Origin: Typha latifolia
Taxonomy: Eukaryota; Streptophyta; Magnoliopsida; Poales; Typhaceae
Direction of reading: 5' to 3'
NCBI GenBank assembly: GCA_019914945.1
Contig: CM034101.1
Span: forward strand, 10,489,188-10,553,187
DNA: 64,000 nucleotides
Shown: in pieces, positions 10,909-64,000 of the stretch
Position numbering within the stretch: position 1 is the first letter of the stretch
How the letters are laid out: the number at the start of each line of letters is the position of its first letter
Translations under genes and position numbers: made by a program
Notes under the pieces: generated by a model
The model's database searches: none
Told to the model about the DNA's origin: nothing
The model's input: only the letters and a program-made list of their open reading frames with translations

Positions 10909-11797
10909 TGATAGGTTCTCAAACTAAAGATAGGCTACGCAACGATTCTTTCAAGATCTGAATGTATTATAAGAATCAGTCCGCGTAACTATGGAAAAAT
11001 ATTTTTCAGATATTCTCTAGTAGTCAGAAAACTACAAAACTAATTAGGTTAGATCCGTACTACAATATGGAATAATGTAGGTGATGGTGGTGGTGACGGG
11101 TGAAGTGAATGTTAGGGTTATGGGTGGTTATGGAGATGAAGGTAGATGGTGGATGTAATTATGGGAAGTAGACGAAGGGAACGAAGTGGTCAAGATCCCA
11201 AAAAAGAAGGGTGGCTTGACAGTCAAGAGGGATTAGAAGTTAGGAGAAACCTTGCCAACTATAGAGGTGGAATGATGGTGAAGAGAGAGGAGGAAGATTA
11301 GGGTAGATAAATGATAGAGAGGCAAGAAATTAATATTCCAATAGCATAATAAATTTGGCTACCATCCACATATATATAGAGGTTAGCCAACAAGTCCTAA
11401 AATAATAAGTAACCATAAATCTAGATGATTTTTGCCGATCACATTCGAACGTGCTCGATCGCGTTCGAACGCACAAAAGACGTTCTCTATATGTGCGAAA
11501 GCGATGCAGGCATTCGAACGCGAGCGTTCGAACTTGCCTGACTGTGTTCGAACGCACAATATGAGTTCTCTGTATTTGGAACCTGATGCAGGTGTTCATA
11601 AGGGCATTCAAAGCGTTCGAACTTGCCTGACCGTGTTCGAACGCACAATATGAGTTCTCTATATTTGCAAATCTGATTCATGTGTTCGTAAGGGCGTTCG
11701 AACGCGACCCCAGCATTTGAACGCGACTTATAGGAATTTTATTTTAATGAAAATAAACAAGTAATGTAGTAAGAAAAGATCATAACTAAACGTATCA
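10909..11797 (-). repeat. G1 5' LTR
   Basis: About 889 bp. It starts TGATACG and ends CCTATCA on the minus strand, immediately before the primer site. The TTCGAA array spans about 11443-11725, longer than in the 3' LTR. The TATA box CTCTATATATATG is at about 11367-11382. The array precedes the TATA box in the direction of transcription. Confidence 0.9.
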
Positions 11798-26107: not shown

Positions 26108-27004
26108 TGATACACTTAGTTATGATTTTTTCTTATTGTATTATGTGTTTATTTTCATTAAAATAAAATTCATGTAGGTCGCGTTCGAATGCAGGTGGAG
26201 TCGCGTTCGAACGCTTGTGAACGCTTGTGAATGCCTTGTGAACGCTTGTGAACGCCTTGTGAACGCTTGTGAATGCCTTGTGAACGCGTTTGTGAATGCC
26301 CGCGTTCGAATGACTTATGAACGCTTGTGTCGCGTTCGCAAATCCAGAGAAGGGGCTTTTTGAGCGCGTTCAAACGCGATCGACGGGAATCCTCTAGAAT
26401 TAAGGTTTCATATTATTTTAGGACTTGTTGGCTAGCTTCTATACATATGTGGATGGCAACCAACTTCATATTAGAATTGGATTCTTGATTTCTTGCCTCC
26501 TATCTTCTCTTTAGACTCTTCCCTCCTTCTTCTTCACCATCCTTCCACCTCTACCGTTGGCAAGGTTTCTCCTCGCTTCTAATCTCCCTCGTCTGTCGAA
26601 CCACCCTTCTTTGGGATCTCGACCACTTCGTTCTCTTCGTCTACTTTCCTTAATCACTTCAACAATCTACCCTCATCTCCATACACATACATAACTCTAA
26701 CATCCACTCCCCCCGTCACCACCACCAATCACCCACATTTTTCTATTTTTTCATCTCTTCTACATTTCGAATCTGTGAAGGGCATAAATATGAAAGTTGT
26801 AGATTAGGAAGTTATAGATCCAACCCAATTAGTTTCGTAATTTTCTGACTACCGGAGAATATCTAATGAATATGTTTCCTCGCTTATGCGGACTAATTTC
26901 TGTAATAAATTCAGATATTGAAGGAATCTTAGCATAGCCTATCTTTGGTTCAAGATCTTATCAAATTGGTATCAGAGCCTAACAATTGGTATCAGAGTCT
27001 AACA
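26108..27004 (+). repeat. G2 3' LTR with primer-site-like tandem copies at its end
   Basis: About 897 bp, TGATACAC...TAACA. The palindrome array (26181-26385) is dominated here by short GAACGCTTGTGAATGCC-like units, a local expansion of half motifs. The last 41 bp hold two copies of ATTGGTATCAGAG(C/T)CTAACA. The CTTAC target duplication comes after them, so they are inside the LTR. Confidence 0.85.
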
Positions 27005-36966: not shown

Positions 36967-37839
36967 TGATACGATTCAAATTTTACCGATGTCATCTCGA
37001 GCATGAATACACTTTATGTGTGTCTTTTATTTTTTGTTTTAGTGTTTATTTTATAGAAAATTAAGTTTTCTATATGTCGCATTCGAACGCGGGTGGGGTG
37101 CGTTCAAACGCGCTTACGAACGCCTGCATTAGATTCGTAAATATAGAGAATACAAAATGAGCGTTCGAACGCCTACATTAGGTTCGCATCGACGGAGAAC
37201 GCTTTTTGTGCGTTCGAACATGTTCAACCCCATTCGAACACAGTCGGCGAAAATCCACTATTTCTAGGGTTAATAAATACCATTTTTGAATTATTTAGTT
37301 AGCCTCTAAAGGTGTGGATGATAACCAAGGAGTTATTATTGAATGAATTGAGTTTTGCCCTAGTATTTTTCTTTTTCTTCTCTCTCGTTCTCTCATTCCC
37401 TGGCATCGCTGCTTCTAGCCTCCCTCGACTGGCCACTCACCCTAGTCCCTTAGGAGCAGCCACTCCCTCCCCTTCTTTCAATCTATCTATTACCTTGCCC
37501 TTACCCCTTCCATCATCTATAATCCTTCCACCACCACATACTCACCGGTGCCACCCCATTACCGCTGGTCTACCACCATCCATTATCACCTAGGATCTCG
37601 TGCCTCCATCCACAGATCCATAGACGGACTCTCTGGCGTTCGTCTACTTCTCGGACAATATCTCGAGATCCCACTTGTCGATTTGCTAGAAAGCTCTTTT
37701 CTAGGGATATAACGTATAAAAATTTCACATTGATCTTATGGCTACATCTTCCGAGATCCATTTTCAAAGTTTCGTGCCAGATTCTGTCCAGATCTGAAAC
37801 AGAATAGGTCAAAACTTAGCCCAAGGGGAGATCATATCA
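36967..37839 (+). repeat. Solo LTR, gypsy type, with TSD GAAAC
   Basis: 873 bp, TGATACGA...CATATCA, flanked by GAAAC at 36962-36966 and 37840-37844. It lies within the first copy of the C3 duplication; the second copy (near 39070) is uninterrupted there, which confirms the insertion. It resembles the G1-G3 LTRs: a TGTTTATTTTAT block, the TTCGAACGC array (37078-37245), and a CTAGGGTT then TTAGCCTCTA then GTGGATGATAACCA succession. It is clearly diverged from them. No internal region remains, so it is a recombined solo LTR. Confidence 0.88.
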
Positions 37840-44842: not shown

Positions 44843-45683
44843 TGATACACTTAGATAGGATCTTTTCTTATTGCATTAGGTGTTTATTTTTATTAAAATA
44901 AAATTCCTATAGGTTGTGCTCGAACGTAGGAGGGGTCGCGTTCGAACGCCCTTGCGAACACCTGCATCAGGTTCGCAAATACAGAGAACGGATATTGTGT
45001 GTTCGAACACCTGCATCATGTTCGCACATACAGAGAACGTCTTTTGGTGCGTTCGAACGTCATCGACGGGAACCCTCTAGAATTAGGGTTTCATATTATT
45101 TTAGGACTTGTTGACTAGCCTCTATATATATGTGGATGGCAGCCAAATTCATTATGTTATTGGAATATTGATTTCTTGCCTTCTATCTTCTCTCTAGACT
45201 CTCTCCTTCCTCTCTCTTCACCATCCTTCCACCTCTACTGTTGGCAATGTTTCTCTTAACTTCTAATCTCCCTCGACTATCGAGCCACCCCTCTTCTTTG
45301 GGATCTTGACCACTTCGTTTCTTTTGTCTATATCCATAAATCACATCAACAATCCACCTTCATCTCCATATCCATCCATAACCCTAACATCCACTCCACC
45401 CGTCACCACCACCATTACCCACGTTATTCCGTGTTTTCATTCCTACTATAGTTCGAATATGCGAAGAGCGTAAATATGAGAGCAGAAAGTTACAAATCTA
45501 ACCCAATTGGTTTCGTAATTTTTTGACTACCGGAGAATATCTGACAAATATTTTTCCACGGTTGAGTGGACTGATTCTTGTAATACATTTAGATCTTAAA
45601 GGAATAGTTGCGTAGCCTATCTTTGGTTCCGGATATTATCAATTTGTTATCAGAGCTTATCAAAATGGTATCAGAGCTTAACA
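44843..45683 (+). repeat. G3 5' LTR
   Basis: About 841 bp, TGATACAC...CTTAACA. The TTCGAACGC array spans 44920-45062, with two GTTCGCA(A/C)ATACAGAGAACG blocks, followed by the TATA box CTCTATATATATG (about 45119-45131). The last 50 bp include two primer-site-like copies (TTGTTATCAGAGCTTATCA, ATGGTATCAGAGCTTAACA) before the true primer site. Confidence 0.88.
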
Positions 45684-45685
45684 AT

Positions 45686-45697
45686 TGGTATCAGAGC
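45686..45697 (+). other. G3 primer-binding site (initiator Met-tRNA)
   Basis: TGGTATCAGAGC, the standard plant sequence, 2 bp inside the LTR end. Confidence 0.85.
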
Positions 45698-45699
45698 AC

Positions 45700-47156
45700 A
45701 CGAACCTCAGACCTCCATTAATGGTTGAAATAAGAAAGATGACATCTATAAGGAGACATATGGAGAGCACACCGACAAGGGAGGACTCAATCCATGATGA
45801 CCCTAATCGTGAGGTCGATTCCTGTAGAGTGACCACGGTAGGACCGAGTCAACCAACATCCATGATTGCGAATATGGATGAACTTATGGGCATGTTCCAT
45901 ACATTGATTCATAGAGTTGACTCAATTCAAAATGATCACAATAATTTCAAGGAATATGTCATGAATCGATTTGATTCATTATCTCCTCGACGGCGATCGA
46001 AGTTTCAAGAAGGACCAGTGGTGGGACCTCATTGATCTAATACCCCACAGGTCCAAGTATGTCATGCGAGTGCCAATGATCCCTTCTTACCTATGCCCAC
46101 ACATCATTCCCCACCTCCATTGCAAAACCCAAGACTGGTGGTGGTGGAACTCGAGAGGAGTATGGCACCGGTGCACTTTGTCGATGAGGAGGATTAACAC
46201 TATGAGGATGAGGTTGATCCCTTTGGAGATGGTGATGGACGTGCTCAAGGATTTAGAGAGGGTGATTAACCTGCACAAAAGCTTAGACCTGAACCAAGGA
46301 TCTTTCGCAAACCCGACAATGCTATTCGGGTGAGAACCGCATGCTTGGACCTTCTAAAATTCTAAGGCAGTGATCCAATGGATTGGGTGTTTCAAGTTGA
46401 ACAATATTTTGACTGTCAAAGTATAGCGGAAGATGCAAAAGTACAGATGGGAAGCTTTCACCTCCAAGGAACGGTATTGCATTAGTATAGATCGGTTATT
46501 CGTGGTGGAGGATTTATCGGATGGGCTGATTTTTGTAGGACGATTACACAAAGATTTAGGACTGCAGCATATGAAGATTTTGCTGCCACATTAAGCAAGA
46601 TGGTTCAAATGACGACCGTATTGGAGTATCAAGCTGAGTTTGAGAGAGTTAGTAGTCGTTGTGAGCCACCTTGGCTTGAACCGACATTAATGAACACATT
46701 TATTTTAGGGTTACGACATGAGATTCAGGCAGATATTCGTGCTCTTTGTCCCACTAATCTTGAGGAGGTCTTTGAGAAGGCCGTGAGGATGGAGCAAAAC
46801 ATAAGGCTCTAAAGATGGCAGCGAAAACATATTGGGGCAACCGAGATGAGCGGTTTGCACCTAGAATGCTGGCTAAAAATTCTGCGATTTCAAAAACAGC
46901 AACTGCGAGTACTAGACCACGACCATTTTTGAGACCTTCTTCCGATGTTAGAGGAGACACAAGATCCCCCGTTCGAACTCTCACACCTGCCCAGGTGGAG
47001 GAGCGAAGAGCGAAGAAGGACCTTTGCTTTCGATATGATGAGCGTTTCACCCCCGGTCATCAGTGTTCTAAACCGATCGGGAGTGTGATGCTTATCGACG
47101 ATCTTGAGGATGATGAGGTTGTTGATGATGGAGAGTGTCTAGAGGAGGTCCAGGAG
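45700..47156 (+). pseudogene. G3 gag remnant, interrupted by solo copia LTR
   Basis: The N-terminal region with the VDSIQNDHNNF helix is at 45685-46035, the charged linker at about 46170-46330, and the gag domain (EYQAEFERVSSRCEPPWLEP, HEIQADIRALCPTNLEE) at 46600-46812. A zinc knuckle near 47030 reads CFRYDERFTPGHQC: its second Cys is Tyr, so metal binding is probably lost. Several frameshifts and a TAA at 46810-46812 break it. It is cut after EEVQE by the LTR at 47157 and resumes at 48163. Confidence 0.87.
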
Positions 47157-48157
47157 TGTTAGGTTTTTATTTGTTGGCAATTGTGTACAAAATATTCTAA
47201 GTGTAATTTTTTCATGTATACGAGCTTTACACAAGTCTAGAATATCTCTGGTTTGAAGAATTGCAAGATTATTGGAGAAAAGCCATAGAGTTCACACCGC
47301 GTTCACAAACGCGTTCGAACGCGGAATCTGCGTTCACACAGACAGAGAGCCGCGTTCACAAATGCGTTCGAACGTGGGTACTGCGTTCACACAGACAGAG
47401 AGCCGCGTTCACAAATGCGTTCGAACGCGGGTACTGCGTTCACACAGACCGAGAGTTGCGTTTACAAACATGTTCGAACGCAACCTGAAGAATTCAAGTT
47501 GTCGCGTTCGAACGCACTCGGGCCCGTTCGAATGCACCTGAGTTCAAGTCATGCCGTTCGAACGCACCCGGGCCGCGTTCGAACGCACCAACGAAGTTTG
47601 ATAAAATTGGACTTTCGTGAGTACGGATAAGACTTAGATTTGTGAGTACGGATAAGACTTGGATTTGGCTCTATCTTGGAGATCATATACAAGGATTGTG
47701 ATGCCCTATCTTGAGGGTAGTTGAAGAAGCATTATTGAAGAAGACTTCTTGAGGCTACATCGGTTCTTCAACTAACAAGGTTCCACTCATCTACAAAAGT
47801 TAATCTTTCGTCTTAAAGGCTATCTAGACGAAAGATCAATCTCGAGGGTTACTGAGATTGGACTTCAATCACGAGAAGCGGTGAATTGTGGGTTCTAGCG
47901 AGCAAGACTGAGAGGAACAAAGTCGTTTGGATCGACGGGTTGTTTTGTGAGTCAGTCTTGTAACTGCTACTATTCTAGTGATTGGTTTTGATCCGAGTTT
48001 GGTTCTGTGGTTCTTTCCCGTTTGAGTTTTTCCACGTTAAAATCTTGGCGTTCATCTCTGCTTTCGTTCTTAATATTTCTACGGACTTTTACTTAAGTGA
48101 ATGAGTGATATCATTGCCTAGTATTTAGATACATACTTGAGTCTAGGGATTTTTTCA
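47157..48157 (+). repeat. Solo LTR of the copia family, TSD AGGAG
   Basis: 1001 bp, TGTTAGG...TTTTCA, flanked by AGGAG at 47152-47156 and 48158-48162. It aligns with both LTRs of the full copia element. It holds three tandem units of about 53 bp with the GCGTTCGAACGC palindrome and GTTCACACAGACAGAGAGCC block (47300-47470). Two further palindromes follow before the TATA region, GGAGATCATATACAAGG here (the full element has CATATATAAGG). Confidence 0.93.
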
Positions 48158-48162
48158 AGGAG

Positions 48163-48860
48163 GAGGTTGTTGAGGTGGGTGCGGAAGAAGATATCGAATC
48201 TAAAATATCGATGCATGCATATTCGGGTGCTTCCGGCCGAGGACGTTACGAGTGGACGGACTCATTAGAAAGCATTGTGTGCACATCCTCATTGATTCGG
48301 GGAGTACACACAACTTTCTAGACGAGAGGTTAGTGAGGAGATTGGGTTTGGATGCCGAGCCGATCACCGGATTTGATGTTGCTATTGGAGACAGCACGAA
48401 GCTTAATGCGGAGAGCTTGTGTCACCGGGTTGGTATATGGGTGCAAGGGCACGATATTATTGTGGACTTGTATCCGTTGACGTTGCGAGGAGCGAACATT
48501 TTTCTTCGTGCTCAATGGCTACAGAGTTTGGGACCCGTCACATTTGATTTTCGGAGCATGTAGATGAAATATAAACAAGAAAAAAAAATGTGCGGCTTGA
48601 TGGTGTTATGTCTTCGCCAATTCCTATGATGTAGACTATGGTGGGGTTGTCTTGTGTGAAGGATTTAACCTATCTTCTTTAGTTAGGAATAGCAGGAGAT
48701 GAGCATCAAATGAGTTCAGGTACCACCATTGAACTATCTAATTTATTAGATAACTTTTCCAGGACTGTTTGAAGAGCCACAGGAGTTGCCACCGAGAAGA
48801 GCGGTGGACCATCACATAGAGATTTTACCTGAGGCTGCACCAGCGAATGTGAGGCCAATC
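48163..48860 (+). pseudogene. G3 protease and start of RT
   Basis: The continuation of gag-pro after the solo LTR. ILIDSGSTHNFLD (about 48276-48320) keeps the catalytic DSG, followed by VQGHDIIVDLYPL and QWLQSLGPVTFDF. A stop at 48561-48563 and further breaks follow. Near 48740-48860 the RT approach region ends at the copia insertion point. Confidence 0.85.
48856..48860. repeat. Target-site duplication of copia element, left (CAATC)
   Basis: Identical to 58590-58594. Confidence 0.9.
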
Positions 48861-49911
48861 TGTTAGGTTTTTAATTATTGGCAATTGTGTACAAAATATT
48901 ATAAGTGTATTTTTATATTTATATGAGTTTTATACAAGTCTAGAATATCTCTGGTTTGAAGAATTGCAAAATTATTGGAGAAAAGCTGTTGAGTTCACAC
49001 CGCGTTCACAAACGCGTTCGAATGCGGGTACTTGCGTTGACACGGGCCGAGAGCTGCGTTCACAAACGCGTTCGAATGCGGGTACTTGCGTTCACACAGA
49101 CCGAGAGCTGCGTTCACAAATGCGTTCGAACGCGGGTACTTGCGTTCACACAGACCGAGAGCTGCATTCACACAGACCGAGAGCTGCGTTCACAAACGCG
49201 TTCGGACGCGGGTATTGTGTTCACACAAACCGAGAGCTGCGTTCATAAACGCGTTCGAACGCAACTTGAAGAATTCAAGTTGTCGTGTTCGAACGCATCG
49301 GGCCCGTTCGAACGAACCTGAGATCAAGTTATGATGTTCGAACGCACCCGGGTCGCGTTCAAACGCACCAATGAAGTTTGAAAAAATTGGACTTTCGTGA
49401 GTACGGATAAGACTTGGATTTGGCTCTATCTTGGAGATCATATATAAGGATTGTGATGCCCTATCTCTAGGGTGGTTTAAGAAGCATTATTGAAGGAGAC
49501 TTCTTGAGGCTACATCGGTTATTCAACTAACAATGTTCCACTCATCTACAAAGCCTAATCTCTCGTCTTAAGGGCTATCTAGATGAAAGATCAATCTCGA
49601 GGGTTACTGAGATTGGACTTCAATCACGAGAAGCAGTGAATCGTGGGTTCTAGCGAGCAAGACTGAGAGGAACAAAGTCGTTTGGATCGACGGGTTGTTT
49701 TGTGAGTCAGTCTTGTAACTGCTACTATTCTAGTGATTGGTTTTGATCCGAGTTTGGATCCGTGGTTTTTTCCTATTTGGGTTTTTCCACGTTAAAATCT
49801 TGGCGTTCATCTCTGCTTTCGTTCTTAATATTTCTATGGACTTTTACTTAAGCGAACGAGTGATATCATTGCCTATTATTTAGATACATACTTGTGTCTA
49901 GGGGTTTTTCA
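48861..49911 (+). repeat. Copia 5' LTR
   Basis: 1051 bp. The tandem array at 49000-49260 has four full units and one 22-bp partial unit of about 54 bp, each with GCGTTCGAACGC (or a variant) and a GTTCACACAGACCGAGAGCT block. Further palindromes lie at 49280-49370, then the TATA box CATATATAAGG at 49439-49449. Confidence 0.92.
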
Positions 49912-49913
49912 AT

Positions 49914-49925
49914 TGGTATCAGAGT
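49914..49925 (+). other. Copia primer-binding site
   Basis: TGGTATCAGAGT, one change from the initiator Met-tRNA type, 2 bp after the LTR end. Confidence 0.85.
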
Positions 49926-49960
49926 AGGTTCTCTCACCCTTTGAGAGAGATCAAATAGAC

Positions 49961-51592
49961 ATGGATTTTCATAGAGATGGACCATCATCTATTAGACCGC
50001 CTATCCTAGATGGATCAAATTATGGATATTGGAAAGCTAGGATGAGAGCTTACTTGAAGTCTATAGATGAATGGGTATGGTTTGCCATTGTGAACAGTTG
50101 GAGTCCACCAATGTACATAGTGGATGATAAACTTGCTGATAAACTGATAGAGTCATGGGATAGGTCAGACTATGAAAAAGTTGGTTAGAATAGTAAGGCA
50201 ATAAATGCAATTTTTAGTTGTGTTTCTTCGGAAGAATTTAGAAGAATTTCTACTTGTGAGATAGCTAAAGAAGCTTGGACGATCTTAGAATCTACTCACG
50301 AAGGAACTATGGCTGTAAAACTTTCTAAACTTCAGAGGTTGACTACTAGTTTTGAAACTCTACGTATAGAGGAGAATGAGACATTTGATGAGTTCTATGC
50401 AAAGTTGAGTGATATAGTCAACTCCAATTTCAACCTAGGAGAGAAAATTCTTGAAAACAGAATGGTCCGTAAGATTCTTAGGTCTCTTCTAGAGAGGTTT
50501 CAGGCGAAAGTTACAGCTATTGAGTAAAATAAGGACATCAATTCTATGAAAGTTGAACAATTGGTAGGAAATCTATAAACATTTGAGTCTAGTCTTTCAA
50601 AACCGAGGAAGTCCAAAGGGATTGCTCTATCATAGTTGAACAAAATATAGAGGAGTCTGATGATGAAGGTGATTTAGATGTTGAAATGTTGGCCATGTTC
50701 GTTAAAAAGTTTAATAAATTCTTTCGGAAGCCAAACAAGTTGAATGCTGAAAAACTTGAGAAAAGCAAAGCCTTTGTGAAAAAGAAGAATACTGCGAGTT
50801 CGAATATAGGTGTGAGCAACAATAGTGTCAAACAGAAAAATAAGAATTCTGAGAATAAAGTTCGATGTTTTGAATGTTCTGGTTTTGGATACATAGCACA
50901 AGAATACCCTAATCGCCTTAAGAAAAAGGGTAAAGCTATGAAAGTTACTTGGGATGACTCAGATGAATCTGATGATGATTCTAGAAAAGACGAAGAAAAC
51001 TATGTAGCTTTTGCCTCTTCTCTACTTAATATCGATTCTGTTGTTGATACTGATAGTACAAATGATCAGGATATGTTACCAGCTGAGGAAGATGAATATG
51101 AAATTGAAAAGGCATATAATGACTTGCACATAGAGTCGTTTAAACTCAAGAAAAGCAATCTTAGACTACTTCAAAGACTCAAGGTAATCGAACTAGAGAA
51201 TTCAATTTGAGGAGAAGTACAAATTGGAACTTGAATGTGTCAAAGACCTTTCTGAACAACTTGACAATGCAAAAAATAAAATGAAGGTTGATGAAATTGA
51301 ACTAGAGCGACTAAATAAAAAAGTGACATTTCTAAAAGGGAAGAACAAACTTGTCGAGATTCTAAAGGCTCAGATCTCTGGAAAAGACAAATATGGTGTT
51401 GGATACACTAGTAATTCAAATAATAATAAAACTATCTTCGTTTCTGCAGGTATACAAAAGGAAGAATATCTGAAGTCATCAACCGCATTTACAAAGCAAT
51501 CCTGGATGAATGCTTCTAAACTGAAGGTGAATCTACAAACTGGTGAATCGTCAACGACACCAAAGGTAAACTTTAGTCACACTCCTCGATAA
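49961..51592 (+). pseudogene. Copia gag remnant
   Basis: It begins MDFHRDGPSSIRPP, then the copia gag core (YWKARMRAYL, 49961-50188). A TAG stop at 50186 is followed by THEGTMAVKLSKLQRL and further gag to 50530. TAA stops near 50525 and 50577 and a frameshift follow. 50686-51210 holds the zinc knuckle region CFECSGFGYIAQEYPN, where the His and last Cys of CCHC read Tyr. 51224-51592 is a Glu/Lys-rich coiled-coil stretch typical of Sirevirus gag tails. Capsid function is lost. Confidence 0.87.
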
Positions 51593-51595
51593 AAG

Positions 51596-52411
51596 GTGAG
51601 TAGAAAAGGGTTTGTTTCGATATGCTATCATTGCGGCATTCTAGGGCATATTCGACCTCATTGCAAATTTTTGCAAAAACCTAGAACTGCTTTCATTTAT
51701 GGGATGAAAACAAAGGCCATGTGGGTCAAGAAAAGTGATTTGAAATGTTATGTTGTGCATACATCATTAAAAGCTTTAAATTCTGATTTGTGGTATTTCA
51801 ATAGTGGCTGTTCAAGACATATGTCGGGTGACAAGTCATTATTTTCTAATCTTGAAAAACATGAAGGGAGAGTTGTGACATTCGGAGATGGTAATTCGTC
51901 CAAGATAATAGGTAAAGGAAAGGTAAGTTCTCCGGGGGTTCCTATTCTTGAAAATGTTCTTTATGTTAAAGGCTTCAAAGCAAATCTTCTGAGTATCAGT
52001 CAATTTTGTGATGAAGATTATGAGGTAAAATTCTCCAAAAATGATTGTACTATTCTAGATCATGGTGGTAATGTTATATGTTATGGATCTAGAACATCTG
52101 ATAATTACTATGTTGTTGGAACATCACATAAACTGAAATGTAATAGTGCCTCTTTCGACGTTGCAGATCTTTGGCATCAACGTCTTGGACATGTGAATCA
52201 TAAGGAATTATTTACTCTGTCCAAACAAGAAGTGATAAGAGGAATAGCTAAAATGAAAGAAATGTCAAAAAGAGTGTGCGGTTCGTGTCAAATTGGAAAA
52301 CAAATTCAAATCTCACACAAGAAGGTAAATGCAGCTACCACTGACCATGTGCTTCAATTAGTTCACATGGACTTGATGGGTCCAACAAGAAACAGAAAGT
52401 CTTGGAGGTAA
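51596..52411 (+). pseudogene. Copia protease, GAG-pre-integrase and start of integrase
   Basis: A second CCHC motif CYHCGILGHIRPHC (about 51620-51665) precedes the protease, where the active site reads WYFNSGCSRHMSG. The family has Asp before Ser-Gly, so the catalytic Asp is Asn here and the enzyme is predicted dead. The GAG-pre-integrase zinc region follows (WHQRLGHVNH, CGSCQIGKQ). Integrase starts with HMDLMGP, keeping the first catalytic Asp, before a TAA stop at 52409-52411. Confidence 0.9.
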
Positions 52412-53264
52412 ACGCTATATATTCTTAATGGTCGATAATTACTCCAGATATACCTGGGTTGCCTTTCTACGTGAGAAGTCTGAAACCTTTGAAGTTTTTA
52501 AATTACTATGCTTAAAATTGCAGAATGAATAATCTACAACCCTAGTTAGGATTCGTTCTGATCATGGTAGAGAATTTGAAAATGAAAATTTTTCTACATT
52601 TTGCGATTCTCTTGGTATTCAACATAAGTTTTCAACTCCTATAACTCCACAACAGAACGGGATTGTTGAAAGAAAGAACCGAGTTGTGCAGGAAATGGCT
52701 AGGGTTATGCTTCACGCTAAACAGGTTACTCAAAGGTTTTGTGCAGAGAGGGACAATACAGCGGTACATGTGATAAATCGTGTTTATCTAAGACTACGTA
52801 CAAAAATGATTACTTATGAAATCTGGAAAGGTAAGAAACCTAGTGTTAAATATTTTTAAGTTTTTGGTAGTAAATGTTATATCTTGCGTGATCGAGAATA
52901 TTTGACTAAATTTGACACTAGAAGTAGTAAAGGCATCTTCTTAGGGTATTCGAATAATAGCAGAGCCTACAAAGTATTTAATCTTGACACTTCTACTATT
53001 ATGGAATCTGCTAATATTATGATAGATGAATCCATGACTGATTTAACTGAAGCTACTCCTATTTCTATTTCTGCAGATACATATGATGAAGAAATAGGAA
53101 AGGAGCTTGATCTGGAAATTGAGAATCAGGACGAGGACAAAGTTGAAATGAACAAAGATGACTGCAACGTACCGGAACCATCTGCTAGAGTGAAATCAAA
53201 TCATCCACTATCACAAGTGATCGGAGACGTGAATGAACCAATTAAGACAAGACGACAAATCTAA
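52412..53264 (+). pseudogene. Copia integrase core and C-terminus
   Basis: After a frame break the core continues with DNYSRYTWVAFL, RSDHGREFEN (second catalytic Asp) and PQQNGIVERKN (catalytic Glu). A stop lies at about 52530 and another at 52857. 52884-53264 carries the conserved C-terminal KGIFLGYSNNSRAYKVFN region and an acidic linker. The DDE residues are present, but the frame is broken. Confidence 0.88.
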
Positions 53265-53312
53265 AGTGAGGTATCATTTACTTGTTATACATCTTCTTTT
53301 GAACCTAAAAAT

Positions 53313-54062
53313 GTGAAGGAAGCATTGTTAGACGATTCTTGGTTTAATGCTATGCATGAGGAATTAGAGCAAATTTCTAGGAATGATGTTTGGTACTTAG
53401 TTCCTAGACCTAAGAATGTGAACATCATTGGAACAAAATGGATTTATAAGAATAAAAGTGATGAACATGGCAATATAGTTCGAAATAAAGCTAAACTAGT
53501 AGCACAGGGATATACTCAGGTTGAGGGTATAGATTTTGATGAGACATTTGCTCATGTTGCTAGATTAGAGTCTATTCGTATACTTCTTGCTATTGCTTGT
53601 CATTTAAAATTTAAATTATTTCAAATGAATGTTAAAAGTGCTTTCTTGAATGGTACTTTGAATGAAGATGTTTATGTGGAACAACCGAAAGGGTTCGAAG
53701 ATAAACAATTTCCTTCTCATGTGTTTAAACTGAAAAATGCCCTCTACGGGCTAAAACAAGCTCCAAGAGCTTGGTATGAGAAGTTAACCACTTTTTTAGT
53801 GGATGCGGGGTTCATTCGAGGGGGAGTGGACAAGACATTGTTCATTAGACGGTCGAACAAGAGTTTAGTTGTGGCACAAATATATGTGAATAACATTGTC
53901 TTCGGGGCAACGAGTCAATCGTTAGCGAAAGAGTTTGCAGATCTCATGCATAGTCATTTTGAGATGAGCATGATGGTTGAGTTGAAGTTCTTTTTGGGAC
54001 TTCAAATTACTCAATTGGAAAGAGGGATATTTAACCTAAGGAGACACATTTGTTTGTTGTGA
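53313..54062 (+). pseudogene. Copia reverse transcriptase remnant
   Basis: A 249-codon open stretch with NDVWYLVPRPK, IGTKWIYKNK, AKLVAQGYTQVEGIDFDETF and LYGLKQAPRAWYEKL. Two catalytic positions are changed relative to the family: FQMNVKSAFLNG (family Asp) and the YVDD box, which reads YVNN. Both changes are Asp to Asn. About 100 codons between the LGLQI region and the KRIIKYV region of RNase H appear deleted at about 54055. Confidence 0.9.
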
Positions 54063-54598
54063 AACGTATCATAAAATATGTCGGTGGCATAGTTGACTTA
54101 GGTATCTGATTTACGTATGACTCGGGAGCTATCATATCTAGATACACAGATTCTGATTGGGTAGGTTCATGTGATGATAGAAAAAGTACCTCAGGTGGAT
54201 GTTTTTATATTAGAAACAATCTAGTTGCTTAGCATAGTAAGAAACAAAACTCGGTATCTTTATCTACTGCGGAGGCCGAGTATATTGTAGTGGGAAGTTG
54301 TTGTTCTCAGTTACTATGGATGAAATAGATGGTCAAAGATTACGGTATTGAACAAGATACTATGGTGCTTTATTGTGACAACATGAGTGCTATTAATATA
54401 TCGAAAAATCCTGTTCAACACTCGCGTACAAAACATATTGATATCCGACATTATTTTTTACACGAGTTAGTTGAAGACAAAATAATAGCACTAGAACATG
54501 TTGAGACGGAGAAACAGTTGGGTGATCTATGTACTTCTTTGGATTTACAGAGATTTGAGTATCTTCGTACTTCTTTAGGGATTTGTGCTTTGGATTGA
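54053..54598 (+). pseudogene. Copia RNase H remnant
   Basis: Reads KRIIKYVGGIVDLGI, a stop, then YTDSDWVGSCDDRKSTSGG, a TAG, SVSLSTAEAEY, a TAG at 54326-54328, and LYCDNMSAINISKNP, HSRTKHIDIRH and TEKQLGDL, ending in TGA at 54596-54598. The main catalytic motifs are recognisable, and each interruption is a single stop. Confidence 0.88.
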
Positions 54599-55640
54599 TT
54601 TTTTTTTTGTTTTGGTTTGCATGGTTTGGTTTGCGTGTTTCTTTTTTATTATTTCTTTTCGTTTCTTTTTAGGTTTTCTTTACTCTGAACTTTTCTTTGG
54701 TTTTATTTTCAGATTTATCAAGAGTTTTTGTCATAAAAATAAAAAAAATAAAAGAATAAAAATTTGATGCACTCCTAGATTCAATAATATACTCTTGACA
54801 TATAAATATGATTTTTTTCTTGATTATGAGTTATTATAGTTAATTTTGTCATCTTGTAGTATATTGTATCATTTCTGATTTGTTCACTCTCTCGACTTCT
54901 ATGATAATTAAACTAAATTTAATGCACTCATAACGTGTGTATATTCTTGAGTGAGCATGACATCATGAAATTTTTTTTAAATAGCTCACTATTGACGTTA
55001 ATTTGCACAGTTTGACCTCATTCTTAGTCATCACAACTGTGTTCATAAAAGATCAATGAAAAGGGCTACAATGAGTTAGTGTGTAAACCATCTTGTTTAG
55101 AGTCCAGTTTGACTCAGTATAATGCTTGCAAATTAATTAAATTTTTTTTAATGTTTGTGAATATCTTCTTGCATATTGTTTGATATATACTACAAAAAAA
55201 GGGCTACCTACTTATGTGTGAAAGCCATAATTGCACCTATATGGTTTATGTATTAAAAAAAATAATACAGGAAAAATTCCTGTTCAGTTATGGAGAATAA
55301 GACGAAAGTGCAAATTTGAATACTAAGTCGGTTTGACTACTGTGTTGTATCATTGTTTAAATAGGAAAGTTTATTTGAGAAGAATGTTTCATGTTATCTA
55401 TGCTCGCCTTGCATATGCATATTGTTATGATCAATCAAGATTAATTTAATTTTAAGTGATGCATTAGAATTGATTATAATATGCTTTTGATGATTTGATT
55501 GATCTGTGTATGACTTATTTCATTCGATTGTCATATTCTATATCTCGAATCTATTTTGAATTTCTAGAAGTGCATCTCCAAAAAGATTTTTTGATTTTTT
55601 CTTAGATTTTTTATTTAAAAAAAAAAGAAAAAGAAAAAAG
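54599..55640. other. Non-coding spacer between copia pol and the internal promoter
   Basis: About 1 kb of AT-rich DNA with T- and A-runs and no supported frame. It belongs to the copia element because it lies between its pol and 3' LTR. Confidence 0.6.
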
Positions 55641-55644
55641 GGGG

Positions 55645-55742
55645 GCGTTCGAACGTAAATTTTTGAGTTCGAACATGGTGACTGGTGCGTTCGAAAGCGC
55701 AGACTGGTGCGTTCGAACGCACTCGAGGATTCTTTATATATT
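55645..55742 (+). promoter_or_regulatory. Internal palindrome array and TATA box upstream of copia 3' ORF
   Basis: Four copies of the motif lie within 76 bp: GCGTTCGAACGT (55645), GAGTTCGAACAT (about 55665), GCGTTCGAAAGC (55687) and GCGTTCGAACGC (55709-55720). The TATA box CTTTATATATT follows at 55732-55742. Downstream is a pyrimidine-rich leader of about 430 bp before the ORF at 56196/56172. The motif-then-TATA order copies the one in the LTRs. Promoter function is inference. Confidence 0.6.
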
Positions 55743-56171
55743 GCGTCCGAACCCAAGGGTTTTCATCTTCCATTTTCCAAACCCCAGAGACTCTTCATTT
55801 TCTCCCTCTCAAATCTTCAAGATCTTGGTCTTTTTCATCAAATTTCTCACTATAAACCCTTTTAAAGGGTTGTTCTCCTCTGGATCTAGCATCTTTCGGT
55901 CGAATTTCCTAGTTTTTCTTCACTTTTGCGAAGTATGATCATCCATCAATTTTCCTATTTTTTTTCAATTAAGTCTCTTGATCTTGATTGATTTCATGCG
56001 TTTTCGAGTTTTGATCACGTTAAAGTTACTATCTTGATGTTTCTTGTGTGATTGAACGTGATATCTTAGCGTTTTCAAGTGGATGATGGATTTCATTTAG
56101 GGCCTTCATGGTTTCTTGAATTTTTTTTATTTCTTGCTATCTTTTTGTTTGCTTTGGGCATGTATTGAATC

Positions 56172-57242
56172 TTGCATCTTGTTTCTTTCTCAAGAATGCC
56201 TAGAAAAGCTGCAGTTTCCAAGAAACCTAGGCCGCCTTCCGCACCTACTTCGGCTCCCAAGTTTTCTACATCTACAGCTTCGGGGCGTTACAAACATAAT
56301 TTTGTCACTCGACCTGTTATTTGTGAACGGCCCGTGGTCATTTCTGAATTTTTTGCCTTGGGGATCAAACATATCTTTACTAAGCGAGGATGGTTATCCG
56401 TGTGTCGAATGAGTGGGACTGCATATGTGGAAGTGGTTAGGGAATTTTTTAGTAATGCCACGGTTTTAGAACGCTGTATACGTTCTACTGTCTGTGAGAT
56501 TTTGATCTACTTGGACTCCGATGTTATTCGTGTAGAACTCCAACTTTTTGATGGTGAGTTCCAGTATCCGTCGTCTGCTAGTACTGATGTCAATGAATTT
56601 GCTAGTACTGTGTTAATCAAAGGGGAACGTTGGAAGGGCAATATGATGCCTCATGCGAAACTGACATCAGTGGCTCGCATGCTTCACCTGCTTTGTCTGT
56701 ACAACGTCACCCCCAAGACTCGCCATTCTAGTATTAGTCTTGATTGTGCCTTCCTCCTTCATGCGATGTTGTCGGGAGTTTCTGTTGATTTTGCTGCGGT
56801 GATCTACAATTCCATTCTAATAGCTGCACAGAAAGAAGCGCCCCGTGAAGGGTTGCCGTTTGGCATATTTATTACAAATTTGTGCACTTAGAGTGGGGTG
56901 CACGTGGATGCCATGGAACCTTCTCTTACTTCGCAAAAACCGTTAGATCGGATTACTCTTAAGCGGAGTCAAGCTCATGATCAGTCGTCTCCTCTCAAGC
57001 CGTCCTCTTCCGCCACTGAGCGTTCCTCACACCTTGATATTTCTGATGACAGTTCGGACGATGACTCATCTCACACTGAGGAGGAGTTACCACAGTTCTC
57101 TAACTGTTTCGATCAGCTTAGCACTTAGGTGCAGGACCTCTATTCGGTTGTGAATGATTTACGAGCTGAGCAAGCACGTCAGGGGACCGTTCTTGACTCT
57201 ATCTTGTCGATTCTTCATCGTCAGTTCCCTCCGAGTTCCTAG
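56172..57242 (+). pseudogene. Copia extra 3' ORF (env-like position, plant-transposon-protein type)
   Basis: One continuous frame of about 356 codons with two internal TAG stops (56889-56891 and 57126-57128). The start is probably MPRKAAVSKKP at 56196, and the frame is open from 56172. The N-terminus is Lys/Pro/Ser-rich. The middle has RPVICERPVVISEF, a VVREFFSNAT block and a LLHAMLSGVSVDF block, resembling the domain of unknown function found in extra ORFs of plant LTR elements. After the first stop the sequence is acidic and Ser-rich, then a short helical segment (DLRAEQARQGTVLDSI). No signal peptide or clear membrane span is evident, so an envelope role is doubtful. Its role is unknown. 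Confidence 0.75.
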
Positions 57243-57254
57243 TCTTTGGCATTT

Positions 57255-57612
57255 GTGCCAAAAAGGGGGAGAGTGAGTGTGAGTTTAGACGTGTGTTTGG
57301 AGTTTAGGAGTTTACTGGTGTAGGGGGAGTAATGGCATAGGGGGAGTTTACTAGATTCTATTTACTGCTTAAATACCTTTCCGTGAATACCTGTGAACTT
57401 TGTTTGCTTGAGTACTTGTGAACTGCTTATTTGATAATTTGTGTTTGGATTGTTATTCATTTCAAGTTATTTTCACTTGATCTTGGTTTGGTATATTTTT
57501 ATTTGTAGGGATTGATGTGCTAAAAGTACTAGACTTGTTGAATGCTCATTTTGAATTCTTTGTAATATCTTGTAAACTAGATGTTTTGTCACAAATTGCC
57601 AAAGGAGGAGAT
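57255..57612 (+). other. Polypurine tracts and 3' non-coding region of copia element
   Basis: CCAAAAAGGGGGAGAGTGAG (57254-57273), two further GGGGGAG repeats (57325, 57340) and CAAAGGAGGAGAT just before the 3' LTR. Multiple purine tracts before the 3' LTR are a known Sirevirus trait. Confidence 0.75.
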
Positions 57613-58589
57613 TGTTAGGTTTTTAATTATTGGCAATTGTGTACAAAATATTCTAAGTGTATTTTTACATGTATATGAGCTTTATACAAGTCTAGAATAT
57701 TTCTGGTTTGAAGAATTGCAAAATTATTGGAGAAAAGTTGTTGAGTTCACACCGCGTTCACAAACGCGTTCGAACGCGGGTACTTGCGTTCACACAGACC
57801 GAGAGCTACGTTCACAAACACGTTCAAACGCGGGTACTTGCGTTCACACAGACCGAGAGCTGCGTTCACAAACGCGTTCGAACGTGGGTACTTGCGTTCA
57901 CACAGACCAAGAGCTGCATTCACAAATGCGTTCGAACGCAACCTAAAGAATTCAAGTTGTCGCGTTCGAACACACTCGGGCCCGTTCGAACGCACCTGAG
58001 ATCAAGTCATGCCGTTCGAACGCACCCGGGTTGCGTTCGAACGCACCGACAAAGTTTGAAAAAATTGGACTTTCGTGAGTACGGATAAGACTTGGATTTG
58101 GCTCTATCTTGGAGATCATATATAAGGATTGTGATGCCCTATCTCTTCGGTGGTTGAAGAAGCATTATTGAAGGAGACTTCTTGAGGCTATATCGGTTCT
58201 TCAACTAACAAGGTTCCACTCATCTACGAAACTTAATCTCTCGTCTTAAGGGCTATCTAGACGAAAAATCAATCTCGAGGGTTACTGAGGTTGGACTTCA
58301 ATCACGAGAAGCAATGAATCGTGGGTTCTAGCGAGCAAGATTGAGAGGAACAAAGTCGTTTGGATCGACGGGTTGTTTTGTGAGTCAGTCTTGTAACTGC
58401 TACTATTCTGGTGATTGGTTTTGATCCGAGTTTGGATCGGTGGTTTTTTCCCGTTTGGGTTTTTCCACGTTAAAATTTTGGTATTCATCTCTGCTTTCGT
58501 TCTTAATATTTCTACAGACTTTTACTTAAACGAACGAGTGATATCATTGCCTAGTATTTAGATACATACTTGTGTCTAGAGGTTTTTTA
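57613..58589 (+). repeat. Copia 3' LTR
   Basis: 977 bp. Its array has three full units instead of four plus a partial; that accounts for nearly all of the 74-bp difference from the 5' LTR. Outside the array the two LTRs differ at a few percent of positions by eye. Confidence 0.92.
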
Positions 58590-58594
58590 CAATC
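58590..58594. repeat. Target-site duplication of copia element, right (CAATC)
   Basis: Follows the 3' LTR, whose last bases read TTTTTA where the 5' LTR has TTTTCA. Confidence 0.88.
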
Positions 58595-59505
58595 CACATG
58601 TGCAAAAAGAAGTTATTTCCAAGATGGTAGCCGAGATGTTGGAGCAAGGTCTCATTCAACCAAGTCATAGCTCATACTCATCCCACGTGATTTTGGTGCG
58701 AAAAAAGGATGGGACATGGCATTTTTGTATTTCCATTCTGGTTATCGAGGAGTTGTTGTACGAGCTTGCAGGGGCGACTATATTTAGTAAGCTTGACTTG
58801 AGGGCCGGGTATCATCAAATTAAAGTTCACGTGGCGGATGTGCATAAATTTGCATTTCGGACTCCGAACGGGCATTACGAGTTTCGAGTGATGCCTTTTG
58901 GTCTCACCAATGCTCTAGCTACCTTTCAAGACCTTATGAATGATATATTTCGGCCTCTCTTGCAAAGGTATGTCTTGGTATTTTTTGACGATATTTTGGT
59001 GTATAGTAGGACTAAATTGGAGCATTGGCGGCATTTGAAGGATGTGCTAAATTTGTTGAAGCAAAACCAATTAAAGATCAAGAAGTCCAAGTGCCTATGG
59101 GGAGTACCACAAGTGGAGTATTTAGGCCAGATCATTTCAGCGGATGGTATAGCGGTGGATCCTCAAAAGGTTGCATGTGTGACTACTTGGCCTATTCTCA
59201 CTACTACCACCGGATTGAGAGGATTTTTGGGGTTGACCGGATATTATCGACGCTTCATCACTGGATATGGCAAGATCGCTGCTCCTCTAACTTCTTTGTT
59301 GAAGAAGGACTCTTTTAAATGGACAGATAGAGCCACTTCAGTCTTTGAAAAACTAAAAATAGCAATAACGACGATACCCATTCTAGCGCTACCGGATTTC
59401 ACCAAAGAGTTCATTGTGGAATGTGATGCGTCGGGTGTTGCCATAGGACTTGTACTTATGCAAAGAGAATGCCCCATAGCCTTTCTTAGTAAGGTTTTGT
59501 CATAA
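58595..59505 (+). pseudogene. G3 reverse transcriptase and RNase H start
   Basis: The continuation of G3 after the copia insertion. EMLEQGLIQPSHSSYSS, then KDGTWHFC joined directly to ILVIEELL, so about 15 residues including the VDYRALN motif are missing. KLDLRAGYHQI and the FFDD box are intact, followed by LTGYYRRFI and the RNase H start VECDASGVAIG. A TAA at 59503-59505 ends the frame. This is the longest gypsy pol frame in the window (about 300 codons). Confidence 0.9.
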
Positions 59506-61250: not shown

Positions 61251-61712
61251 TAATACACTAAGATATAATTTTTTTTTATTACATTAGGTGTTTATTTTTA
61301 TTAAAATAAAATTCCTGTAGGTCGCATTCGAATGCAAAAAGGGTCGCGTTCGAACACCCTTGCGTATGCCTGCATTAGGTTCGCAAATATAGAAAATGCA
61401 TATTATGCGTTCGAACGCGGTCGGGCAAGTTTGAACGCCCGCGTTCAAACGCTTGCATCGCGTTCGCACATACAAAGAACGTCTTTTGGTGCGTTCGAAT
61501 GCGATCGTGAGCATTCGAACGCGATCGGGAGCGTTCGAACGCGATCGACGGGAATCATCTAAAATTAGGGTTTCATATTGTTTTAGGACTTGTTGGCTAG
61601 CCTCTATATATATGTGGATGGCAGCCAAATTCATTATGCTATTGGAATATTGATTTCTTATACAGATATTATCAATTTAGTATGAGAGCTTATCAAAGTG
61701 GTATCGAGCTTA
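61251..61712 (+). repeat. G3 3' LTR with internal deletion
   Basis: It starts TAATACAC (TG changed to TA). The array 61324-61552 has about eight palindromes or variants and a GCGTTCGCACATACAAAGAA block (61461-61480), then TATA at 61602-61612. At about 61660 it jumps to the LTR end, losing roughly 400 bp. The end again shows primer-site-like copies (ATTTAGTATGAGAGC, GTGGTATCGAGC). No CA terminus or target duplication is clear. Confidence 0.8.
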
Positions 61713-63098: not shown

Positions 63099-64000
63099 TG
63101 AAAAAACCCCTAGACACAAGTATGTATCTAAATACTAGGCAATGATATCACTCGTTCACTTAAATAAAAGTCCGTAGAAATATTAAGAACGAAAGCAGAG
63201 ATGAACGTTAAGATTTTAACGTGGAAAAATCCAAACGGGAAAAAACCATAGATCCAAACTCGGATCAAAACCAATCACTAAAATATTAGCAGTTACAAGA
63301 ATGACTCACAAAACAACCCGTCGATCCAAACGACTTTGTTCCTCTCAGTCTTGATCGCTAGAACCCACGATTCACTGCTTCTCGTGATTGAAGTCCAATC
63401 TCAGTAGCCCTCGAGATTGATCTTTCCTCTAGATAGCCCTTAAGACGAAAGATTAAGATCTATGGATGCGAAGGACCTTGTTTGTTGAAGAACCGATGTA
63501 GCCTCCAAAAAGTCTCCTTGAATAATCTTCTTCAACTCCCTCAAGTTAGGGCAACACTATCCTTATATATGATCTCCAAGATAGAGCCAAATCCAAGTTA
63601 TATTCGTACTCACGAAAATCCAATAAATTGCAAACTTCATAGGTGCGTTCGAACGCGGCCCGTGTGCGTTCGAACGCAACAGCTTGAATTCTTCAGGTTG
63701 CGTTCGAACGCATTTGTGAACGCTGCTCTCAGTCTGTGTGAACGCAGTACCTGCGTTCGAACGCATTTGTGAATGCAGCTCTCTGTCTGTGTGAACGCAG
63801 TGCCCACGTTCGAACGTGTTTGTGAACGCGGCTCTCTGTCTGTGTGAACACAGTACCCGCGTTTGAACGCGTTTGTGAACGCGGCTCTCTGTCTGTGTGA
63901 ACTCATATTTCGCGTTCAAACGCGTTTGTGAACGCGGTGAGAACGCGACGGCTTTTCTCTAATAATCTTGCAATTCTTCACACTAGTGATATTCTAGACT
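63099..64000 (-). repeat. Copia LTR (minus), continues beyond the window
   Basis: On the minus strand it ends GTCTAGGGGTTTTTTCA at 63099 and aligns with the other copia LTRs. Roughly 90 bp of its 5' end lie outside. No primer site follows its 3' end, so it is either the 3' LTR of an element to the right or a solo LTR. Its array (63642-63950) has four units of about 53 bp, closer to the solo LTR type (CAGACAGAGAGC) than to the full element (CAGACCGAGAGC). Confidence 0.9.

Follow-up and report, generated by a model that had tools for sequence, protein, structure and literature searches.

The repeated-motif (RM) boxes of Sireviruses (Bousios et al. 2010, PMC2829016) are the closest known kind of sequence to the arrays described here. 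In the published description, 3-14 boxes lie in each 3' LTR (its Table 3), a CGG-CCG core is found in all but one element (Tnd-1 being the exception), and the boxes are reported to be Sirevirus-specific and absent from classic copia; the same account gives no conclusive identification of an internal promoter in Sireviruses. The window analysed here, 64,000 nucleotides of the Typha latifolia genome (contig CM034101.1), carries palindromic arrays at the position of RM boxes, with a core that is TTCGAA rather than CGG-CCG and with an occurrence that is not restricted to Sireviruses. The same box, partly with a linked block, is found in several LTR lineages among which no relationship is apparent beyond the array.

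The TTCGAA core emerges from base counts over the array sites. The window holds 24 exact copies of GCGTTCGAACGC and 47 of GTTCGAAC, and the sites fall into 11 clusters; the copies of GTTCGAAC at 9618 and 46971 lie outside the clusters, within gypsy internal DNA. Genome-wide (214 Mb), 14,944 exact GCGTTCGAACGC were counted against 0 for the reversed control word, a count that overstates the number of events since copies inside one family are related. Dispersal was checked in 20 samples of 10 kb, taken at round coordinates on C1-C10, which yielded 14 dispersed clusters at eight loci. The flanks assign 13 of these clusters to gypsy or copia elements, and the remaining one (L016) belongs to an LTR-like family, assigned without pol seen. 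In these samples the word behaves neither as a common satellite nor as a word frequent in random AT-rich DNA. Its carriers are LTRs of Ty3/gypsy chromoviruses, of Sirevirus-type copia, of a second, shorter copia lineage and of further LTR-like families, so that the compound array, claimed in the initial annotation for two superfamilies, extends within them to a second copia lineage and also to other families.

Arrays lie in both LTRs of gypsy element G1, which were detected as a pair, at 4855..4983 (minus strand; four sites with at most one mismatch; TATA at 111 bp in element orientation) and at 11461..11705 (minus strand; five sites; TATA at 82 bp). Further gypsy arrays occupy an LTR at 26181..26377 (plus strand; no TATA recognised), a gypsy-type LTR of a second subfamily, the solo LTR at 36967 of the initial annotation (array at 37079..37172, plus strand; no TATA recognised downstream), the G2 LTR (44938..45060, plus strand), which contains the blocks GTTCGCAAATACAGAGAACG and GTTCGCACATACAGAGAACG (the latter at 45020), and the G3 LTR (61346..61542, plus strand; six sites), with a TATA 62 bp downstream in both G2 and G3. 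The features of a chromovirus were seen in separate copies: an RVT_1 reverse transcriptase frame (58555..59502, plus strand, E 8.9e-32), the initial 35 bases of which are copia LTR, lies in the element hosting the copia insertions, and a Chromo domain (PF00385, 26.6 bits against a cut-off of 25.1) lies in a G1 fragment.

The Sirevirus-type copia is represented by a solo LTR (47157..48157, plus strand; 5-bp target duplication AGGAG; array at 47311-47586) and by an element at 48861..58589 (plus strand; target duplication CAATC; LTR divergence K2P 0.063), nested in the gypsy element, with ends taken directly from its sequence. Its 5' and 3' LTR arrays (49014..49366 and 57766..58044, plus strand) each have seven sites and a TATA 74 bp downstream, and another copia LTR near the window end, the end of which was located, has an array of six sites at 63645..63923 (minus strand; TATA at 75 bp). 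The element shows an RVT_2 reverse transcriptase (E 5.9e-64) and multiple polypurine tracts near the 3' LTR (57264..57610, plus strand), namely three exact AGGGGGAG past the ORF described below (57264, 57322 and 57339) and a terminal octamer at 57603, AGGAGGAG, one mismatch away from AGGGGGAG, whose first base lies 10 bp ahead of the 3' LTR; another AGGGGGAG match lies within pol at 53819. The putative primer binding site, TATCAGAGT, has one mismatch to the Sirevirus TATCAGAGC, which follows a related LTR in L019 exactly. Between pol and the 3' LTR, the position of the Sirevirus envelope-like gene, an ORF at 56196..56888 (plus strand, from the first in-frame ATG) matches PF20167, a putative plant transposon protein (E 1.8e-27, obtained with frame 56169-56888) and is by its place a candidate envelope-like gene. 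An internal array (55645..55720, plus strand; four sites with at most two mismatches) precedes this ORF, 14 bp upstream of the TATA-like TTTATATATTG. The second copia lineage holds at least three GTTCGAAC in all 15 fetched copies, picked from 40 scored matches. The L033 family, a candidate Tork-type copia, has an RVT_2 with 47% identity to the Sirevirus-type reverse transcriptase over 159 aligned residues, and LTR pairs 4.9-5.0 kb apart. The sharing of TTCGAA-cored arrays between gypsy and copia LTRs, proposed in the initial annotation, is therefore borne out by the 11 window clusters, and so is the unrelatedness of the two pol genes, with RVT_1 and a chromodomain on one side and RVT_2 on the other.

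TATA boxes were called by a simple pattern within 200 bp downstream of each cluster, in element orientation. In the main gypsy subfamily 10 of 11 clusters gave one, six of them at 62-63 bp, as did 13 of 17 Sirevirus-type LTR clusters, 11 of them at 74-75 bp; the array also lies ahead of a TATA in 2/2 L002/L016 clusters, in L031, in L033 and in 2/2 internal Sirevirus arrays. The second and third gypsy subfamilies had recognised TATA boxes in 1/7 and 2/4 clusters, none being found within the 200 bp for the other six and two, respectively, nor for L028/L037. A palindrome followed by CTATAAA at 10-40 bp gave 76 matches, five of which overlap L031 LTR matches (40 in number), and the reversed pattern gave 0. 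Because of the recognition rates per subfamily, an array upstream of the TATA box, claimed originally for gypsy and copia LTRs alike, is well supported for the main gypsy subfamily and the copia, but the subfamily to which the solo LTR at 36967 belongs does not bear it out.

The palindromes are paired at a strict distance. Genome-wide, 5,907 pairs of GTTCGAAC are spaced at 19-22 bp and 84 at 23-26 bp, as against 7 and 22 reversed-control pairs, and all seven sampled groups show some 19-22 bp spacing. The next spacing level shows a weak preference: 592 pairs fall at 40-43 bp (85 in the reversed control) and 356 at 44-47 bp (7 in the reversed control). The common spacings besides 20-22 bp vary between groups (49 and 61 bp in gypsy, 53-55 bp in Sirevirus-type and 41-43 bp in second-lineage copia). 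Arrays within a family contain tandem units, and the CpG observed/expected ratio is 1.6-2.2 in four arrays and 0.74 in the whole window. Position, CpG density and pair spacing support, at the level of sequence, a role for the array as a putative promoter module. Over 455 sites, with up to three mismatches allowed, 254 of 305 departures at the six CpG positions are C-to-T or G-to-A changes, a bias that suggests methylation of the arrays in the past.

With moderate confidence, we regard the array as an upstream activating sequence on which a single factor would act, and its spread as the result of exchange combined with tandem growth. A sequence-specific DNA-binding protein, most likely a host transcription factor, would bind GCGTTCGAACGC as a dimer; two such dimers would sit next to each other at a distance of some two helical turns and would drive transcription from the TATA box that lies a little further on. 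The short array probably moved between element families, either by template switching or through gene conversion among nested LTRs, and then underwent tandem duplication and selection for the same factor within each family. More tentatively, and as something short of probable, a compact palindromic enhancer module may have passed between Ty1/copia and Ty3/gypsy and placed many LTR families of one genome under one trans-acting factor.

A tandem repeat without a regulatory role, hitch-hiking in LTRs, would account for the tandem units inside families and for the clusters without a recognised TATA, but is highly improbable in view of the near-constant distance to the TATA box in main gypsy and Sirevirus-type LTRs, the pair spacing preference and the array ahead of an internal promoter-like site. 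The B box consensus of tRNA genes has a GTTCGA core, which makes GTTCGAAC B-box-like, and the array could be imagined to tether TFIIIC as a chromatin boundary or RNA polymerase III-type site; this is scarcely credible, as the fuller form GTTCGANNC occurs only three times in 63 arrays with 263 GTTCGAAC. It is also improbable that the palindromes recruit an anti-silencing protein (with the PF20167 protein as candidate) that keeps the promoter unmethylated, as VANC does on VANDALs, which are DNA transposons. Dense motif arrays with tandem units in non-coding element DNA, and the array in front of the PF20167 ORF itself, would fit such a protein, but the VANC21 motif is described as seldom found in other elements (PMC5735166), unlike the palindrome here, and the CpG departures point to past methylation. 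The half-sites TTC and GAA are those of a canonical heat-shock element array for plant heat shock factors, a distinctly improbable reading given that the 63 arrays contain one GAANNTTC and no TTCNNGAA, the forms with a gap found in plants; on these counts the arrays do not qualify as heat-responsive elements. According to the protein-binding array data described for the oomycete Phytophthora infestans (PMC11267843), ungapped TTCGAA is a target of some heat shock factors and one bZIP counts GTTCGAAC among its 8-mers, and an unusual heat shock factor or an unusual bZIP is therefore a candidate for the factor.

The initial annotation had aligned a linked block between gypsy and copia at 16 of 20 bases. 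The gypsy block GTTCGCACATACAGAGAACG lies at 45020 and the copia block GTTCACACAGACAGAGAGCC at 47332 and 47385; genome counts are 2,576 for the copia form (0 reversed controls) and 2,203 for the gypsy form (34 reversed controls), and the order palindrome, 7-8 bp, GCGTTC(G/A)CACA(T/G)AC recurs, as described, in both G3 and copia. The best match inside the window (17/20) was equalled by 1/200 shuffles, but masking of the half-sites removed its significance (33/200 shuffles equalled the observed value at 16 bp and 85/200 at 12 bp), so the window match is marginal alone. Lineages were also compared with palindromes masked and 40 shuffles per pair, a stricter version masking half-sites too. Gypsy against Sirevirus-type copia reached 20/20 identical bases (null maximum 16; 0/40 shuffles), a value that depends on a single locus, the diverged copia LTR L003. 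All 40 shuffles were also exceeded by gypsy against L002/L016 (19/20) and, at 18/20 each, by L028/L037 against gypsy and against Sirevirus-type copia. Under the stricter masking, the two copia lineages were identical at 14/14 bases (null maximum 13; 0/40 shuffles), and significance was gone for Sirevirus-type copia against gypsy (11/40) and against L028/L037 (14/40). Gypsy and the second copia lineage had nothing significant in common besides the palindrome (37/40 and 5/40 shuffles equalled the observed values). BLAST matches of gypsy LTRs to copia loci L003, L034, L041 and L042, checked by eye, lie within the array or at its edge.

Convergence, in which each LTR lineage would have made its own array by point mutation and tandem duplication with the same host factor as best activator, is somewhat unlikely. 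It agrees with the palindrome and pairing being all that gypsy and the second copia lineage share, with the variation between groups in spacings other than 20-22 bp, and with the recurrent gain of heat elements described for Brassicaceae copia (PMC5059998); it is opposed by the L003 identity and by a linked block that keeps its distance and orientation in the gypsy, Sirevirus-type, L002/L016 and L028/L037 groups. The proposed exchange of a regulatory module between superfamilies is thus favoured for gypsy and Sirevirus-type copia only, with the strongest support coming from L003, and the resemblance between gypsy and the second copia lineage could be attributed to convergence. For the other route suggested in the initial annotation, copying from a host sequence, no candidate source came up among the loci analysed.

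Should the arrays of many families indeed answer to one and the same activator, that factor would set the activity of a large share of the genome's LTR retrotransposons, and its loss should quiet copia and gypsy together. Promoter modules, besides whole elements, could then cross superfamilies, and on the exchange reading the retrotransposons of the genome would share a regulatory key as a community, the parts exchanged being promoters. The specificity of the 12-bp word is enough to make the hunt for the factor direct.

Compared with RM boxes as published (PMC2829016), the arrays are likewise palindromic, CpG-rich and upstream of the LTR TATA, with extra boxes before the gene at the envelope position and multiple AGGGGGAG tracts in the copia element; the four copia LTR arrays of the window have 6-7 sites (at most one mismatch), to be set against the published range. 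Unlike RM boxes as described there, they are also present in chromoviruses of the Ty3/gypsy superfamily and in the second copia lineage, and the internal boxes have a TATA-like site immediately behind them. The heat elements of ONSEN and Brassicaceae copia (PMC5059998) are likewise LTR activator sites gained by several families, duplicated in ONSEN, but those described are nGAAn clusters in copia families, and the gapped form is nearly absent here. VANC arrays (PMC5735166) share dense short motifs, non-coding location and tandem growth, but their motif, as described, is a directly oriented 9-mer, no palindrome, and hardly found outside the VANDAL family to which it belongs. Gypsy Del elements (PMC4029996) also have a CpG-rich LTR part (CpG islands), but the main text of that report contains neither 'palindrom' nor 'tandem', and the passages considered name no motif in common with copia. 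Relative to these accounts, the arrays combine the RM-box layout of Sireviruses (PMC2829016) with a TTCGAA core and a distribution across superfamilies; if one activator is indeed served, the RM box would not be private to Sireviruses.

The window was placed at C3:10489188-10553187 in a 214-Mb genome, and its palindromes are carried by two retrotransposon superfamilies. The 12-mer GCGTTCGAACGC occurs there 24 times in exact form and its shorter 8-mer GTTCGAAC 47 times, grouped into 11 clusters that lie, as the initial annotation had proposed, in both gypsy elements (RVT_1, with the chromodomain in a different copy) and copia elements (RVT_2). The Sirevirus-type copia at 48861-58589 has the target duplication CAATC and an LTR divergence (K2P) of 0.063, while a solo copia LTR at 47157-48157 has the target duplication AGGAG. 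Both were judged to have inserted into gypsy sequence, because repeats with the gypsy copy G1 lie on both sides and an RVT_1 frame follows. The primer sites of the LTR elements are presumably of the tRNA-Met type. The Sirevirus-type copia has a PF20167 ORF (56196-56888) at the envelope place, and within 55645-56888 a palindrome array and a TATA-like site (about 55735) immediately precede this ORF, forming a candidate internal promoter; locus L022 holds a second instance of the same arrangement. Amid the retrotransposons, positions 40783-43635 (+ strand) hold a resistance gene of the CC-NBS-LRR type, whose open frame of 951 residues encodes Rx_N, NB-ARC, winged-helix and LRR domains. Taken together with the primer sites, this gene points to a plant.

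The palindrome is not a chance word, as GCGTTCGAACGC was found 14,944 times genome-wide and its reversed control not once. Twenty 10-kb stretches were taken at round coordinates and yielded 14 clusters in 8 loci, assigned by their flanks to gypsy-type sequence (7), Sirevirus-type LTRs (5), a Sirevirus internal region (1) and the LTR-like family L002/L016 (1). Clusters from the C1 arm, of which 23 of the 24 first found were fetched, contributed the families L028/L037, L031 and L033. The last is a second copia lineage with RVT_2, LTR pairs 4.9-5.0 kb apart and an RT 47% identical to the Sirevirus-type RT over 159 residues, and all 15 copies fetched, picked from 40 scored matches among 239 candidates, hold at least three GTTCGAAC, one of them (L052) being devoid of the exact 12-mer. 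L002/L016, L028/L037 and L031 are known here from LTR-like sequence alone; for L031, 5 of 40 LTR matches at other places overlapped palindrome-plus-TATA matches.

Families were delimited by clustering array flanks at 170 bp; clustering at 700 bp was discarded, as nested insertions chained families together. Gypsy and copia each form one linked group, inside which three communities (the gypsy subfamilies) and two (the copia halves) were told apart; the labels gypA/B/C, F002, F028, F031 and F033 were coined in this analysis. L044 stood alone by its 170-bp flanks and was assigned to gypsy from a BLAST match, whereas L028 and L037, separate at 170 bp, were merged because their 700-bp flanks link them. 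L001, at the same place as L002, was left out of the clustering, the isolated palindrome L027, assigned to no family, out of the 63 arrays, and L004 out of one linked-block table only.

The proposal that the array lies upstream of a TATA box held for the main gypsy subfamily and the Sirevirus-type copia, and not for the gypsy subfamily of the solo LTR at 36967. Within 200 bp downstream, the pattern followed 10 of 11 main-gypsy clusters (at 62-63 bp in six, at 82-165 bp in the others) and 13 of 17 Sirevirus-type LTR clusters (at 74-75 bp in 11), but only 1/7 and 2/4 clusters in the other two gypsy subfamilies. It was present in both L002/L016 clusters, in L031 at 51 bp, in L033 at 31 bp and after both internal Sirevirus arrays at 14 bp, and in neither L028/L037 cluster over the same 200 bp. 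Genome-wide, the palindrome followed by CTATAAA at 10-40 bp gave 76 matches and the reversed pattern none. Spacing within arrays is also constrained: GTTCGAAC pairs number 5,907 at 19-22 bp (7 for the reversed control) and 84 at 23-26 bp (22 for the reversed control), although copies within one family are related and neither these counts nor those of periodicity represent independent events. At 40-43 and 44-47 bp the preference is weak (592 vs 356; controls, 85 and 7); a helical-turn rule across all spacings was accordingly rejected, and only the first preference is claimed. Periodicity at 10.5 bp exceeded all 300 random arrays in the sampled gypsy, Sirevirus-type, L033 and internal arrays and 297 of 300 in L002/L016, and was absent in L028/L037 (value reached by 263/300) and L031 (65/300). 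Other regular arrangements were encountered as well. At C1:13207712-13207810 a short stretch has GTTCGAAC each 13 bp, differing from the usual 19-22 bp pairing; four paired-palindrome sites recur with a 3.29-kb period at C12:3678804-3688715, perhaps another tandem array; and eight copia-type LTR segment matches with a 5.12-kb period at C5:9788208-9824264 give the impression of one LTR element repeated head to tail.

The linked block, a second sequence beside the palindromes, had been put forward as a further shared feature. Its best match in the window is 17/20, equalled by 1 of 200 shuffles and without significance against shuffles once half-sites are masked, so the argument is weak within the window. 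The larger data support the block, the gypsy form GTTCN6ACAGAGAA occurring 2,203 times genome-wide (control, 34) and the copia form GTTCNCACAGACMGAGAG 2,576 times (control, 0). Families were then compared with palindromes masked, and again with GTTC and GAAC masked too (40 shuffles each). Gypsy and Sirevirus-type sequences have 20/20 bases in common (null maximum, 16), and with half-sites masked the best 14-mer reaches 12, equalled by 11/40 shuffles. The 20/20 match stems from L003; this LTR is of the copia type but diverged, its identity to the window copia LTRs being 68-72% over 427-502 bp. L003:1377-1512 holds the gypsy-form block, 19/19 against a window gypsy LTR, and further genome copies of this LTR subfamily were found. 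The Sirevirus-type and L033 families share CAGACAGAGAGCAG, which under the half-site mask gives 14/14 where the shuffles reach 13 at most. Gypsy matches L028/L037 at 18/20 and L002/L016 at 19/20 (0/40 shuffles each), and both at 13/14 with half-sites masked (1/40 each); L028/L037 matches the Sirevirus type at 18/20 (0/40), falling to 11/14 (14/40) under the stricter mask, and gypsy and L033 show no significant block match (37/40 and 5/40). These pairwise matches form a chain from gypsy through the Sirevirus type to the second copia, each link being partly supported.

One palindromic word is similarly placed and paired in several families, and the favoured reading is that the arrays are probably upstream activating sites for a single DNA-binding protein acting as a dimer. 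Copia nested in gypsy, as in the window, provides the physical closeness for the proposed transfer from LTR to LTR. No chimeric breakpoint was demonstrated among the LTRs compared, and separate gain of arrays by each lineage, to which the missing gypsy-L033 match would be no obstacle and the chain of block matches would be unexpected, seems the less probable account. Sites for heat shock factors, the tRNA B box and VOZ-type factors have consensus forms that can be sought in the arrays. Against 263 GTTCGAAC in the 63 arrays, gapped heat-shock forms gave 1 match, the B box 3 and the VOZ-type GCGTN7ACGC site 0, and all three were rejected. Binding by an unusual heat shock factor or a bZIP would be a long shot; the idea is retained because, in the available excerpts of PMC11267843, some heat shock factors of the oomycete Phytophthora bind ungapped TTCGAA in vitro and one bZIP has GTTCGAAC among its 8-mers. 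This may serve as a lead on protein class, and is not evidence for a plant factor. The arrays may have been methylated. CpG observed/expected is 1.6-2.2 in four arrays vs 0.74 for the window, and 254 of 305 departures at six CpG positions (455 sites, up to 3 mismatches) exchange C for T or G for A, counts shaped by the mismatch limit and the relatedness of copies; such departures would be the mark expected of methylated cytosines.

Among the titles and abstract openings surveyed, with subscription literature mostly outside the survey, no report described one such box common to gypsy and copia LTRs. A search for GCGTTCGAACGC gave no plant or retrotransposon title among the matches listed, and for GTTCGAAC with retrotransposon and LTR the sole plant paper among the matches was on rice, the rest having mouse or embryo titles. 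A 2016 Genome Research study reportedly treated the palindromes of maize Sireviruses. In the rice paper (PMC10952705), as far as its available text goes, GTTCGAAC appears once, within a haplotype string. The Sirevirus repeated-motif boxes outlined in the accessible part of PMC2829016 are palindromic and stand upstream of both the LTR TATA box and the envelope-like gene, a layout equal to that of the arrays here. The copia element here has multiple AGGGGGAG tracts, and a PF20167 ORF at the envelope place. Unlike those boxes, reported in that part of the source as Sirevirus-specific, the box here has the core TTCGAA and is also found outside Sireviruses.
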